Assembly (NCBI GenBank): GCA_903813345.2
Contig: CAIIXF020000010.1
Location: forward strand, 11,537,181-11,601,180
Source of the DNA: Owenia fusiformis
Taxonomy: Eukaryota; Annelida; Polychaeta; Sabellida; Oweniidae
DNA length: 64,000 nucleotides
Direction of reading: 5' to 3'
Each line of letters opens with the position of its first letter. Position 1 is the first letter of the stretch. The translations under genes and the position numbers were made by a program. The notes under the pieces were generated by a model. That model saw only the letters and a list, made by a program, of their open reading frames with translations, was not told the DNA's origin and did no database searches. Shown in pieces: positions 23,101 to 60,865 of the stretch.

Positions 23101-25695
23101 ACCTGAATCTGTATTCACCAAATTATCTTTCTCTCGCTCCATGCTAAAAACAGATGTTTGGACACTATTATAATGTCTGGATGTATCATTTAGTTAAAAG
23201 TAATGTACATAAAGTATAATAAACATATAGAAATTGTATTCTCTGATAAATCATTTATTTAATCAAGCGTCAATAACAGACTAATAACTCGAAAATATAA
23301 AACTTAAAGGTATGTGTAATCTAGTAATAGTACATACGAGGGGGGATTCATAAGTAGTGGGACTTTTCTGAGGCAGCAAGTCCCTGTGTACATACCTCAA
23401 CCAAATTTGGCACACGAACGGACTAGGATATAAGGCATTGTTTTGCGAAATTTCAATTTAATTCATTTTGTTCCCTAGCAACAACGGTTGCTATGGTAAC
23501 CAAAAGTAGGGGTTAACGGAGCAGTTAAAAAATGAAGGCCTTGATCAACATAAATATGCTCATAAATATCTCAAAATGACAGTTATTTTCAAATATTTGG
23601 TTTCATATTGTCTCAAGCCTTGTAGTCATGACAACTGTAACATATATTACATCATCATGCTATTGTGATGTCACTCAAAGCAGTGACACCAGGACACTGC
23701 CATTTTCAGTCCTTCTTGGATGGAGCAAAATTTGATTAAAATAGCAATGAAAAAGCAAGAATCACGTATAAACATCCGTACTGTGATTAAATGTAATGCT
23801 TTGAAGAAGTTTTAAGTATTAGAGACCTATAGAGGTTTGTTGGAAATCTATGGGAAAGAAGAAGTAAAAAAATCTACAGTATATAGGTGGTATTCTGTAT
23901 ATGTATTCTGAATATGCTGTGAGAGCCGAGATGACCAATCTTGGAAAATACGGTTTTGAGGGTGCATACATAGAATGGTTGAGGAGATGCCAAAAATGCA
24001 TTGATTGTCATGGCCAATACTTTGAGAAAGAGTGAGATTGCACCAGAAGGATAAGGAATCAAAAGTCTTGCACAGAATTGATGTGTTCCACAAAAGGAAC
24101 TCGCTTGAAGTCACGGATTAGATCACGTCCTGAATATCAGTTGGGACTTGTACATTTAACTAGCAATTAGTGACAAACAATGTGCTCCGTGGACCCTGTT
24201 GTGACGTCATGATTGGAACTCTCACTTTACTGAAGTTGGGTGTAACTTTTGGAAATTTTCACACAATGATTATCACATGTTTGTGGTTCTGTGTCCCAAG
24301 TTTGAATAAAAACTCGTTGATATAAGTGAAGTTATAGCATTTGTCCCACTACTTATGAATCCCCCCTCGTACATAATGGATTTAAGAGTCTCTGCTAGTT
24401 TTGTTCCTGAATTTTCATTCAGACTAGCTTTTCCTGTTGGTACGGTAACACTTCCATCTGTTTCCATTGGTTTGTTTTCCTCTGTGCTCTGTTCAACTTC
24501 AATTTTCTCTAAAATAAAATACACGTATATGTAAATACTAAGATCAACTATTAAAGAGTATTTGAAGTTTAGATCCAGTGATTTTTGATCATTAGTCAAT
24601 CTAGACCAGTATGAAGAGTAAATCTCTGAACAAACATAAGACACCTGTAAGATAACAATCAATCTGGATGTTTTCTTATTACCTTCTTGTGTGTGAGGAC
24701 TTGAGCAAATAACATCTGAGTCTACACTTGATGGTTCAGATGCTTCCAGTACACTTGTACTGTATGTGCCTGACACAGGTGGGGAGTTGCCTTCCACTGC
24801 CTCGAAACTGTCATAGGAGCTGGTACCCGGTGCTTCCTTCGGTCCTTGTAAAGGTCCTGGAGACTCTGGATCATCCTTCAAGTTCACGACTGGTTCCAGA
24901 GTCACATCTAATTTTAGCATAGCTGGTTGTTCAAGAGGACCTATGAGGTCCTGTTGCTGTCCTGCAAGGTGATCGAGAGAGCTCTCATGGCTCTGGTTGA
25001 TATCTCTAGGTGGTTCCTCATCAGAGGTTGGTTCTGCTGGTTCTACTGGCTGACTTTTGTGAAAGCTGACCTCATCTGGGGAGACCTTGATGTAACCTGA
25101 GGATGACTGGCTACTGGTAGCACTGTCACTCTCACTGCCATTCTAGAAATGAAGGTTGGTGCACTTGAATGAGATCCTAAGGCCCATGATTTTATGCCAA
25201 AGTTGTCAAATGTAAACTTCCCTGGAGTTTTTTGGAAATTGAGCCCCCTTGTCAAAGCTGGTTATAGGCCTATCTATTTTATGTTTTTTTTATATACATA
25301 TGAGAGTTCTGTTCATATCTGGAAAACATGTCCATCAACTGTAATAACCAGCTTCTGGTAACAGTTCATGACATCCAGACTTACTGAGATTTACATTGTA
25401 TCTATGAGAACAATTTGTGTAACTTTAACATTGGTTACAGCACCCCGAGTTGATGTCAGTTACCTCAGCTCAATGCTGATCAAATGAACAAAAAATATAT
25501 CTGTATGTCAATAACCATAATATACATGTAATGACTAAAAAATAAGGACATTTAAAATATTATTTTGAATGGATTTACAAGAAGATTTTGGCCTCTTTTA
25601 GTTAGTCTTACCTCAATGTCCCCCTTATTGTTTACAAGCGCCCATCCCTTTAGTTTTGTACCCCCATCATCTGAGTCACTATTGCTCCTCGACAT
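12382..25695 (-). CDS. CCPG1: CCPG1/PBXIP1-like ER-phagy receptor
   Basis: Twelve coding exons: 25695-25612, 25142-24683, 24508-24373, 23143-23103, 22461-22276, 22119-21844, 18384-18248, 17841-17596, 17247-16963, 15880-15627, 14921-14749, 14162-12382. Phases agree throughout and predict 1,352 residues. The N terminus MSRSNSDSDDGG...GWALVNNKGDIE aligns with the start of vertebrate CCPG1, including the LC3-interacting core (W-A-L-V). One membrane segment (about 373-392) separates an acidic cytosolic part from a long lumenal part: coiled coils (395-760), repeated KNYT/NST helical units with N-glycosylation sequons, a Cys-rich patch and a tail of W(Y/L/I)F repeats. Known family role: single-pass ER receptors that link ER to the autophagy machinery through LIR and FIP200-binding motifs. 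The lumenal part is much longer than in human CCPG1 (about 757 residues in total). It could equally be the pre-duplication ancestor of CCPG1 and PBXIP1. Confidence 0.85.
14406..14598. mobile_element. MITE with CAGGCCCGTAGCCAG ends, in a CCPG1-like intron
   Basis: CAGGCCCGTAGCCAG at the left is the exact reverse complement of CTGGCTACGGGCCTG at the right. The 193-bp interior is G-run-rich, with GGGGGGGTTC next to both ends, and is non-coding. It lies in the intron just 5' of the last exon. Short flanking bases (TTATG / ATATG) are only a tentative target duplication. It looks like a non-autonomous DNA transposon. Confidence 0.8.
16963..17841 (-). other. CCPG1: Duplicated coiled-coil exon pair in the CCPG1-like gene
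   Basis: Exons 17841-17596 (82 codons) and 17247-16963 (95 codons) are tandem duplicates. Both begin VY(N/A)T(T/S)EE(A/G)HKQT, share SSKEDE(F/L)RRRIF and KSKLHDVNIETAS, and are phase 0 at both ends, so either can be skipped without a frameshift. Both are heptad-rich coiled coil in the ER-lumenal stalk. The second copy has an extra 3' segment ending LEQAKQ. Confidence 0.88.
21064..21434. mobile_element. Possible MITE in the largest CCPG1-like intron
   Basis: ATTAAAGGGACAACAA on the left and TTGTTGCACCTTTAAT on the right are imperfect inverted repeats about 370 bp apart. The interior is AT-rich and non-coding. No clear target duplication was found, so this is a weak call. Confidence 0.35.
21844..22119 (-). 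other. CCPG1: CCPG1-like exon with the transmembrane helix
   Basis: The exon encodes a strongly acidic stretch, a basic cluster NARRR and then the single hydrophobic span CLAICAVFFAVGIGFGHFIG. Basic residues sit before and acidic or coiled sequence after the span, fitting a type II orientation with the N terminus in the cytosol. It is followed by the gene's longest intron (18385-21843), which holds at least one MITE-like repeat and no recognised exon. Confidence 0.8.
22612..22765. repeat. GTTGGTTGTCTG-type simple repeat
   Basis: Degenerate tandem units of GTTG, GTCTG and GATTG (GTTGGTTGTCTG, GGTTGATTGTCTGG) fill about 150 bp of an intron of the CCPG1-like gene. Confidence 0.85.
23337..24369 (+). 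mobile_element. mariner-type transposon, internally deleted, in a CCPG1-like intron
   Basis: The ends are inverted repeats: CGAGGGGGGATTCATAAGT and its complement at 24351-24369, extending through GTGGGAC, flanked by TA on both sides. The 1,033-bp length is below a full mariner (about 1.3 kb). The interior retains degraded transposase sequence on the plus strand. The right end lies three bases inside the intron that follows the exon at 24373-24508. Confidence 0.9.
23726..24035 (+). pseudogene. Broken mariner transposase remnant
   Basis: From about 23726 the plus strand reads MEQNLIKIAMKKQ, then RTVIKCNALKKF, a TAA, and in the same frame VLETYRGLLEIYGKEEV and KKSTVYRWY, which resembles the helix-turn-helix half of mariner transposases. 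About 60 bases later YGFEGAYIEWLRRCQKCID then CHGQYFEK resembles their C-terminal end. The catalytic D,D,D core between them is missing. The remnant is inactive through the stop and the deletion. Confidence 0.75.
25612..25695 (-). other. CCPG1: CCPG1-like exon 1: start codon and LIR motif
   Basis: The 28-codon exon begins at ATG 25695 and ends in phase 0 before GTAAGAC. The Ser/Asp-rich start followed by G-W-A-L-V matches the family LIR (aromatic-x-x-aliphatic), which binds Atg8/LC3 proteins. GDIE directly after it resembles the first FIP200-interacting segment of CCPG1 (SDIE). In the 5' direction the sequence is intergenic. Confidence 0.8.
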
Positions 25696-25965
25696 ATCAG
25701 CTCTACATAACTTACTAGACTAGAAAAATACAAGACTAAAGCCGTCAAGTTGTTTTAAACTTTCATAACTGATATCAGTAGCATGTACTAAAATATGTTA
25801 ATAATGTTTTTGTACTATGATGTAAATGACATGCAAGCAGGATGAAATTCTTTGTCACAAAGTTTGGCATTTTTTATAAAATCAAACGTGCGTCATTGAA
25901 ACTCACAAGATGTAAATAGCATGTCATTTACATCATACCTTGATGGGGAGAAATAGATCTTTTAT

Positions 25966-35777: not shown

Positions 35778-38700
35778 TTAAAAAAATCCCATTAAGGATT
35801 TGCGTTTTTTCTTCAGTGGTGACTTCCCTTTACTTGGAGATGCTAAAATTCTCCTAACTGGTGGTCCCTGAGTATTATTAAAAGTTTTATCATGCTTCTC
35901 CTCACTTCCTATAGCTTCCCCTGGGCTCTCTAAAAATGAAAAAAGTGATGGTTTCTTTTGGGATTGATCAGCAGTGTTATCGATGAAAGAAAACAATGAT
36001 GGCTTTCTTGGAGATTGGAGAAATTTACGAACTCTTTCGGGAGTTTCTCCAAATCCACTCATAGAACTTCGTGATTTATTTGAGTACCTGCTTCTTTGAC
36101 TCGGAGTAGACACATGTCTCCTTTTTTCAATATCCTTTCTGATATTTGAGTATGTGAGTCCAGGTTGCTGACTAGGCATTTCTAACTGTGTGAAGGATTC
36201 ATGTCTACTTGGGATATCAAAATTGTTAATGTCATCAGCAGTCGATACCATCTCAAAATTGTTTTGTGGTATGTCATTGTTTTCTAATATAGATTCCATT
36301 TGGGGTTGGTCATATGAAGAACTATCCTGAACACTCATCTCTTCTATATCTTCCAAAATAGATGATGAAATTGACTCATTTAACACACTCTGTGTTTCCT
36401 CTTTGTCTTCTTGTAGTTTACGTTCTTTACGTTCTTTATCAAGCTGTATGACAATATCTCCAACATCTTCATCTTCTGTCCATAGGCATATCATAAGTTT
36501 ACTCATGGCCCTGTCATTGTGTCGAGGATTCACTGGAGGTAGTCTGTGTATAATGCTGGGAAAGCCAGGTTGAATATCACTTGAGCTTGCATGAATTACT
36601 GCACCCTGAAGATAATTCAAATACACATACAGTACTATAAGTTATTGAATGATTTGAAGTGCAATACAGGATATATTCTGCTCGAGAAATTCCGTGTGAT
36701 CCTCTGTATTGCTACTGAGAATGTCCCCTCCGTACCAATATTTTCTGTATTGCGACGGAGATGATCAATGGGGAGGATCTCAGTAGCAATACAGATTGGT
36801 ACAGCACAAGAACTGACCAATCAGAAGGCTTCGTTTTACAGATCATACGACAAATGTATTTACAGTATAACATTAACTCTTCACCTTTGAGCTCCCAAAT
36901 AAGTAGATACAACTACAAGCAGAAATCAATGTATTGATTCAATTTTTAAAGTAATCCAATGTTTAGATTGAACATATAGAAATGCAGAAATGTGGTTTCA
37001 AAAATTGCTTGTCAATTATGAATCAGAGAATACTTATTTCAAAACATAAAAATTTTATGAAAATAAATGAACCTGTTGAGCTGATTTCTTGAGTTGTCTT
37101 CCCTTAGACAAGGAAAATCCACATGCTTCACAAAAGTCTGCTGGATTACATTCAACAGCAGGCATGTCACCCCTGCAGAGGGCACACAATAGATGGGGGT
37201 ACCGTATTGTACTGATTGCTATAACATGAAATATGTGTATGTTCATTGAATATACATGGATGTATATATGTTTTCATACATTGTGCAATAATCTAGACAT
37301 GAAACTCTAAATAATAACTTAACTTTATATAGTAACTGTACAAAAGATCATGGAAAACAAGATGTACCATTTGAAAAAATTATTGTTTTCACTCCCCAGG
37401 TACATAGAAATAGAATTATCCAAAAAAAGTTTGTCTTACGTAACTTTTACCTTTAGAGTAATTGAGGTAACAAGTCAATGTCTTACCACTAAAATTTGAG
37501 GTCACATCACAAGGATGTCCTAGTTGAGGCTGATTCCTCACCAGTGTTTTGCAGTGCTGCACCCATTGGGCACATTGCATCCTATTCTCCTCATTTAGGT
37601 TCAAGCCCTCTGAGCCACATGGTCCACTGGAGCATGTTTTATCAAGTCGTTGATCCATCACAGGAGTGAAGGCCTGGTAGAACAGGTCCCCATAAGCCGA
37701 CATCTGAATAAAAATGTATGTTTATTATAAACTGACAGGAATATCTTACACAGGTTTTTTAGGTAATACTTAAAAGGGGAACAAAGGAAAAGGATAATTC
37801 AAGGATAAAATTCCGGAAAATTGTCACAATTTAATTTCTTTTTTGCTCGCTGACTTAAACTATGACTTAATTTGATTAAAATAGATCAATTTATAAAGTT
37901 ATGAGGCAGTAGTTTTGACATCCCCGGATTCTGTCTCTTGACTTTTTAATTACTTCAATATTTTATGAGATATATTTTTTCAGATATTAAATCTTGGTAA
38001 TGAATAGTACAAATGTACATTGATGTTGCATGTTTGATCTTTGAAACCTATCAGAATAAATTACACAAAACAGTCACAAATAAACACGCATATACAGTAA
38101 AACCTGTATTGAACACCCCTCACTCTCAATAGTGAACACCTGCCTAGAAGACACCCTTCCTTCCCACATACTCTAAAGACTTCTGTATAAATTACCCCTT
38201 CTGTTGTGAACTCCTACCAACACTGAATGTTTTTCTCGGCAAAAAAATGTTGAATATACATGGATTTTACTGTACCTGTATTGCTGTAAACCCATGTCCC
38301 TCTTTGAGATTAATTGCACAGATCCCTTGTATGGCCACCCCCAGTCTCAAGTCTAGCATCTTTCTATTTTCTTCAGTGACACCCATAAGACTCGAAGCTT
38401 TGGGAAAATCACTGAAATATGTGTACAATGTTGAATTTACTTAATGCCATCAATTTATTTCAACTTCATTTAGTGTTATATAAACAGTTAACAAACATTG
38501 AGTGTGATATACTAGTTTCAACATTTCACCCCCATGGAGCAAAATGGCAATACGTCTTTTTATCAATTAACTTCTCCCATAATGTAAAATGTTCTAAATA
38601 CATAGCAATCTGTACAGTACAGAATATAAACAAGGCATCAACATGCAAAATGTCACCACCTGCCATTTGTTACAGATGCTGAACTCTGAAAGCGGACTAC

Positions 38701-59788: not shown

Positions 59789-60045
59789 TCACCACAAAAT
59801 ATATGTTAACAATAAAAATTTCAGGTCTATGTGAACATTACATTTACCTGAAAGTCCACTTTTTTGTTGCCATGGTAACAGATATTGGCAGAAACGTGTT
59901 GGAACAGATACATATGATAATATGATCTTATAAGTTGTAAGAGTTTCTTACAGACACTGAAGATCGAAATGTTACAAGTCCACTGATTTGTTGCCATGGT
60001 GACAGACATTGGAAGAAAGGTGTTGAAACTCATTACATGTTTATA

Positions 60046-60825
60046 CAGGGTGGTCCAAAAAATCATTTACACTTTTGATTGGGTATCATTTTCTAACAAT
60101 GGGAAGATTTTCCAATTTTTTTCATAGACCTGTCATGCAGACATGTACGTTTTGTGTGGTATAAGTTGATCCTTCCTTTATCCTTCCCTTAAAGTATCCC
60201 AACCAAAAAACTTTATTTAGGGGATATGTCTTCAGAATGTGCAGGTCAGGTGTGATCCATAAAATGGGAGATGGGTCAGTCAGGGAAGTCATGAAGCAGG
60301 TATTCAAGTCAAGCATTGGATTAGTGCAATGTTACTTCATCTTGCCGATAGATAACAGTGACGGTATCCATGTCAACCCCTCGCTTCCACCCCAGTGCCA
60401 GGGTGAATTTTCTTCTCATAACTTCAATGTATCAGGCCATGTTCACGGGAAATGAATGTCCATTAGCATTCTCAAATTAAACCAGTATCGCCATTATGAC
60501 CTAACTTTCACCAGTCATCTTCTCCACATCACATGTTTGATGCTGATGCTCAGAAGAAAAAACGTGAGCCAAAAAGTGCATTTTCTATTTGTTGACAGTT
60601 ATTACAAACCTAAATGTGCAATTAACTACTGCAATTCACCACCAAAGAACTTGGATTGAGCACATGACAAACTATTGGCCTGCATGTGCTCTCATTACAG
60701 TGGTATATCAGAATAAAACTTACACCACACAAAACTTACATGTCTATAGGACAAGTTGGGAAATTTCTCTGTCATTAGAAAATGCTACGTTGTCAAAAGT
60801 GTAAATGATTTTTTGGACCACCCTG
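60046..60825. mobile_element. TA-flanked element with long inverted repeats
   Basis: CAGGGTGGTCCAAAAAATCA and its continuation TTTACACTTTTGA are exactly complementary to the right end; diverged homology extends to about 130 bp per arm (TTTTGTGTGGTATAAGTT versus AACTTACACCACACAAAA). TA flanks both ends, as in Tc1/mariner-type elements. Open frames inside show no recognised transposase motif, so it is probably non-autonomous. Confidence 0.82.
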
Positions 60826-60865
60826 TATATGTCCATGGTAAAAATTTGAAGAGAGTCTAAACATT

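Follow-up and report, generated by a model that had tools for sequence, protein, structure and literature searches.

A pogo-type MITE located in the TAF1C splice donor of Owenia fusiformis, apparently without breaking the donor

Introns, splice sites and transposable elements are known to meet in several ways. Introners are introns derived from transposable elements, and in some introner families the 5' splice site lies partly in the target duplication (PMC9860276, as given in an excerpt of that paper). For mulberry, the consulted part of PMC6593561 ties MITEs within introns to alternative sites and exonization, and a Brassica MITE family with duplicated TA shows intronic and splice-site associations (PMC3626606, excerpt). 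With regard to donor recognition, U1 can pair with 5' splice sites in a bulge register (Roca et al. 2012, as referred to by the consulted section of PMC9311317). TA-transposons inside retained donors are not described in the titles and abstract openings of the open-licence papers that our searches listed.

Here, we study such a case within a 64-kb stretch of the Owenia fusiformis genome (contig CAIIXF020000010.1, in the following called the window). A MITE sits exactly in the donor of a gene that, by frame and profile match, is TAF1C, apparently without breaking this donor (Table 1). Read on the minus strand, AATACAG|GTA is directly followed by the element, i.e., CAG|GTA|CAGTAAAATCC, and the exon MSAYGDLFYQ starts directly after TTTTTATTCAG, with phase 0 on both sides of the intron. 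Splicing at the element-bordered GT preserves the TAF1C frame and joins FTAIQ to MSAYGDLFYQ. The protein matches the Pfam profile TAF1C_beta-prop above cut-off (E=8e-17), and a weak match to the TAF1C_HB helical bundle (E=0.012, below cut-off) extends across the junction; no PDB sequence match to the TAF1C protein was found at E up to 0.1. We read the GTACAG donor as working because both the frame and the TAF1C homology continue across the junction. The initial annotation had joined the same two exons to TAF1C and taken the donor to be in use, which agrees with these observations.

Table 1. Features of the window (positions counted from its first letter).
Feature	Position	Strand	Basis
coding exon of TAF1C (...DFPKASS...FTAIQ) ending at base 38276; other edge approximate	38276..38411	-	frame, profile match
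TAF1C intron, 572 nt, phase 0; donor GTACAG from 38275, acceptor AG 37705-37704; the MITE takes up 178 nt	37704..38275	-	sequence, frame
TAF1C exon after the intron (MSAYGDLFYQ...), other boundary placed by eye	37485..37703	-	frame, profile match
pogo-type MITE, 178 bp, 8-bp perfect terminal repeats CAGTAAAA/TTTTACTG	38095..38272	.	sequence, aligned genome copies
intron-side TA target-site copy	38093..38094	.	sequence, aligned copies
exon-side TA target-site copy, i.e., donor +2/+3 on the minus strand	38273..38274	.	sequence, aligned copies, frame
mariner-like element with CGAGGGGGGATTCATAA ends; TA at 23335-23336 and 24370-24371; minus-strand donor ATTAT|GTA at 24372	23337..24369	.	donor by frame only

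In the window sequence, the element reads CAGTAAAACCTGT...GATTTTACTG with TA at both sides; including this TA, ten bases of the inverted repeats are in perfect pairing (38093-38102/38265-38274). A genome-wide copy search (498 Mb) resulted in 1092 first-look candidates, 40 of which were scored. Among eight aligned copies (the window and seven others), the similarity ends at TA and the flanks diverge beyond it. The left TA is present in all eight copies and the right TA in 7/8; the right end reads TTTTACTGTA in seven copies and TTTTACTATG in L007. That is, the location and TA flanks assigned in the initial annotation were right, and the boundaries stay unchanged when aligned with other copies. 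The closest other copy among the 40 scored candidates shows 82% identity, and the TAF1C-borne copy diverges by 18-21% from the copies listed. Because the nearest other copy is only 82% identical, the TAF1C insertion looks old.

The terminal inverted repeats of pogo elements, which belong to the Tc1/mariner superfamily, begin with CAGT. The aligned copies show a TA target-site duplication, the terminal repeats CAGTAAAA/TTTTACTG are of the CAGT type, and the element is short (178 bp), lacks coding capacity and is of high copy number (about 7,850 net TACAGTAAAAYC ends, distributed over several related families). In its target duplication, type of ends and length, the element fits a pogo-type MITE. 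We also searched for an autonomous relative via the DDE_1 transposase (PF03184), which yielded 19 matches; 14 loci were read in stretches of about 3.3-3.5 kb each, and none of these 14 shows matching ends on both sides. One of them (L119) holds a degraded DDE_1 transposase copy with TACAGTAGAACCTGTGAAAGTGGAAC on one side, near a TACAGTAGAACCTGTG end. Concerning target flanks, A or G is found at -1 in 77/100 of the CAGTAAAA-type ends listed (of 817 in total), with otherwise mild preference. Three copies (L005, L006, L008) have AGCATATA in common at the left end and different right flanks, and the window copy too carries CATA before CAGT. This hints either that the preferred target is longer or that the left end is extended in a young subfamily.

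To relate the locus to the rest of the genome, we collected AGGTA sites followed by CAGTAAAAYC. Out of 101 counted sites, 100 were read and 92 were left after collapsing duplicates, i.e., eight sites that have 16 upstream bases in common and stem from a single repeat (L016 and others). L001 represents the window itself and was left out. Ten sites, TAF1C included, end a coding exon when judged by eye and not blind, namely TAF1C, L010, L021, L024, L043, L064, L081, L084, L093 and L106. Among the nine loci outside TAF1C, L081 is the only one to pass a curated Pfam cut-off (Ephrin_rec_like, E=4e-5). Matches below the curated cut-off identify L010 as a cytidine deaminase (CDA, E=8e-4), L043 as gamma-tubulin-complex-like (GCP_C_terminal, E=2e-5) and L093 as SKA1-like (SKA1, E=1e-5). 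L021 matches SBF_like (E=0.013, likewise below cut-off) and is presumably SLC10A7-like. No Pfam match was obtained for L064, L084 and L106, and only an irrelevant one for L024.

At six of the ten sites (TAF1C, L024, CDA, L064, L081, L093) the next exon is found in the frame of the GTACAG donor. The other four comprise L021, L043 and L106, for which the next exon was not placed, and L084, where the expected position lacks a clean acceptor. When joined at the occupied donor, the CDA exons align to the solved cytidine deaminase 1zab gap-free at the junction (E=4e-29). The CDA element is about 190 nt long within an intron of about 2.4 kb and resembles the window MITE; the others for which the far end was read span about 190 to 1,100 bp and have related ends. 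That is, the donor-borne elements fall into several related families. The far end TTTTACTG plus TA is present at 4/6 further donor loci (L108, L109, L111, L112); the sole TTTTACTG at L113 is followed by AT and may not be the element's end, and no TTTTACTG far end was seen for L110. In the CDA copy, GA stands in place of the far-end TA.

We then assessed whether element ends are enriched at donors, which the initial annotation had proposed to count genome-wide. For the pattern TACAGTAAAAYC we counted 8695 occurrences, at least 97 of which lie in one satellite array, compared to 842 for the reversed-pattern control. Given that AGG precedes 288 of 28,252 sampled TA positions, about 79 AGG-flanked ends are expected, or about 115 when calculating from the base frequencies in the flanks of these ends (1.5%). 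About 88 were found, i.e., 101 less 5 for the control and less 8 duplicates.

In addition, element sites, other AGGTA sites (from the window and the loci) and AG[ACT]TA decoys each received an exon score that combines codon usage with the open frame and the acceptor, where AGGTA and decoy sites less than 250 bases from the start or less than 60 from the end of a stretch were dropped. Control sites whose frame stays open for 30 codons were set aside, while element sites were left unfiltered. For cut-off 8, 8/92 element sites compare to 24/295 filtered control sites (Fisher p=0.83; ratio 1.07, 95% range 0.4-2.1); unfiltered, the control reaches 32/295, and the decoys show 21/1209 filtered and 57/1209 unfiltered. 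The respective element and filtered control counts are 4/92 vs. 12/295 (cut-off 10), 8/92 vs. 28/295 (7), 8/92 vs. 32/295 (6), 10/92 vs. 49/295 (5), 14/92 vs. 66/295 (4), 19/92 vs. 79/295 (3) and 38/92 vs. 143/295 (0). Hence, no meaningful excess of element ends at exon-like donors is present at any cut-off among the 92 element and 295 control sites. For laxer cut-offs a deficit of element sites appears, where decoys are frequent too. The score is weak, and cut-off 8 misses the TAF1C donor (5.7) and L021 (4.9). An earlier codon-only score likewise gave a deficit, i.e., 6/92 element vs. 45/328 control sites (cut-off 2) and 1/92 vs. 24/328 (cut-off 4), but its controls contained the exons on which it had been trained as well as sites inside exons. 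It was replaced by the combination of codon usage, acceptor and decoys, which is still imperfect. Compared to ordinary AGGTA sites, donors are thus tolerated at about an equal or a lower rate and do not represent hot spots; the counts leave room for mild selection against donor insertions. With respect to the initial annotation, its notion of permissive GTA donors is supported, with a CAGTAAAA-type end at ten coding donors (by eye) and an in-frame next exon at six of them. The step from two donor insertions in one window to special targets is not supported: the lack of an excess over other AGGTA sites corresponds to the outcome that the annotation itself had named as refuting.

Why a donor tolerates the element end had been attributed to the intact GT. 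The GT indeed stays, but this reason is incomplete and too weak, as donor bases -3 to +3 survive the insertion while +4 onward is replaced. Among 24 control AG|GTA donors (donors by score, two of which overlap) only 6 have G at +5, and positions +4 to +6 of AG|GTA donors look loosely constrained in this genome. The six reconstructed empty donors (GTATAT and GTATTT and GTACAT, each twice) never show G at +5; for CDA, the reconstruction treats the far-end GA as a changed TA. For all six pairs, the predicted pairing with the U1 5' end is stronger for the occupied donor than for the empty one, e.g., -10.4 vs. -7.7 kcal/mol for TAF1C, where the energies reflect plain base pairing without U1-C or pseudouridine. 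The stronger predicted pairing arises because AGUA of CAGTA pairs past one bulged C, i.e., CAG|GUA(C)AGUA, and removal of AGT from the pogo end abolishes the predicted gain. If transferred in silico to each of the 24 control donors, the pogo end gives stronger pairing for 17, equal for 2 and weaker for 5, while the CGAGGG end gives 0, 4 and 20, respectively. For the CAGGGTGG end, whose register was left unchecked, the values are 13, 3 and 8.

These energies suggest that a U1 bulge register may act at element-occupied donors, although it may be unnecessary for their tolerance. A stronger version would make CAGTA a splice-safe terminus: AG|GUA(C)AGUA would be bound by U1 around the bulged C, on paper more strongly than most control donors of this genome, such that selection would spare donor insertions of these elements but not those of TA-elements whose ends differ. 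We hold this version to be doubtful.

The window harbours further elements, some of them at donor-like positions. The first, unnamed element of the initial annotation is probably the mariner-like one at 23337-24369, whose end lies at ATTAT|GTA|CGAGGG. Its putative donor follows from the frame alone (ATT AT|C ATG GAG CGA); alternatively, the exon might continue for about 30 codons within the element. Counting ends with a non-T first flank base, this family has 67, of which 13 show ATGTA as here. A third donor candidate at 25816-25937 (AAG|GTATGATG) was rejected: the repeat extends beyond TA, as the 100 listed copies (of 616) show CCCATCAAG or a near variant before GTATGATG. It represents an inverted-repeat MITE TGATGTAAATGACATG inside a longer high-copy repeat, and the donor look-alike AAG|GTATGATG recurs in nearly all of these 100 listed copies (of 616 matches, non-T first base). 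The mariner-like CAGGGTGG-end family (60042-60829 in the window) has 3091 counted ends with non-T first flank base, of which 5 sites are at AGGTA (control 2). Rather than selection, this scarcity largely reflects target preference, i.e., T is found at -2 in 75/100 of the ends listed.

Two repeats elsewhere in the genome contain pogo-type ends. A tandem array at G000 C1:268276-278783, possibly extending further, has a unit of about 103 bp, each starting with TACAGTAAAACCTGT; a pogo-type end appears to be the origin of this satellite. Ten near-identical copies (L016, L028, L032, L042, L057, L067, L069, L071, L090, L104) of a longer repeat carry GATTTCAAG before the pogo-type end and seem to be a composite that spreads as one unit.

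Taken together, we consider it likely that the TAF1C locus represents an old pogo-type insertion that targeted the TA of an AG|GTA donor already present, which was kept and tolerated at nearly no cost. Accordingly read, a non-autonomous pogo-type transposon would have entered the TA of the pre-existing donor long ago, the target duplication would have retained donor positions -3 to +3, and the element's end would have become +4 onward, with a donor that, judged from the frame, should still work. The same CAGTAAAA end, stemming from several related families, would occupy about nine other coding donors at a rate not exceeding that of ordinary AGGTA sites. Tolerance could result from loose positions +4 to +6, with U1 needing mainly CAG|GTA, and additionally from the CAGTA end via U1 pairing with AGUA around the single bulged C. 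The insertion would then be about neutral and persist by chance.

The view that the intron instead arrived with the element, as for introners, could draw on the location of the donor, which is partly in the target duplication here as well as in some introner families (PMC9860276, excerpt). Yet, the element covers only 178 of 572 nt and does not span the whole intron, the acceptor (37704) is not its other end, 389 nt of intron lie beyond TA, and the CDA element likewise forms a small part of its intron, which renders intron gain most improbable. An occupied donor that is weakened, with TAF1C partly mis-spliced or using another donor and an insertion that is slightly harmful or regulatory, could draw on the overlapping GTAAAA 5 nt further in as well as on the lower frequency of occupied donors compared to controls for laxer cut-offs and the codon-only score. 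However, splicing at this GTAAAA, the sole alternative tested, shifts the frame, and the state looks old given the divergence of the TAF1C copy, such that we deem a weakened donor unlikely. Finally, TA-elements might be steered into GTA donors, either by the transposase or by chromatin that is open at splice sites. Two donor insertions within one 64-kb window point in this direction, since rough arithmetic puts the chance of two hits at about 1 to 5 in 10,000 (about 8 TA-elements by eye and 0.2-0.4% per element, where the upper figure assumes equally many non-AG donors). Against this, one to four such two-hit windows are expected among about 7,800 by the same rough arithmetic, CAGTAAAA-type ends show no genome-wide excess at donors, and the few AGGTA sites of the CAGGGTGG family mostly reflect its T preference at -2; preferred targeting is thus very improbable. 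The tempting step from two donor insertions per window to a donor hot spot is thereby corrected.

The old, tolerated insertion is of wider use, as about ten genes in one genome form natural experiments, in which +4 onward of apparently working donors is swapped for nearly the same transposon end. This gene set would allow testing of what extent of a donor is required in an animal and of whether real splice sites depend on U1 bulge registers.

With regard to known systems, and as far as the consulted excerpts describe them, the locus resembles introners in that a DNA-transposon-like element is involved and the target duplication gives part of the 5' splice site (PMC9860276); unlike introners, the TAF1C intron exceeds the element, the acceptor lies outside of it and the intron probably pre-existed. 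Mulberry and Brassica MITEs likewise reside in host-gene introns or splice sites (PMC6593561, PMC3626606), and the Brassica family also duplicates TA, but in contrast to the mulberry cases the original TAF1C donor is kept and +4 onward replaced. Stwintrons of the [D1,2] type also have a donor split by an insertion (PMC12403724, excerpt); their insert is an intron, whereas here a TA transposon lies between +3 and +4. Finally, as for 5' splice sites with U1 bulge registers (PMC9311317, excerpt), U1 would pair around a bulged base, with the difference that the register would stem from a transposon end, as predicted by computation.
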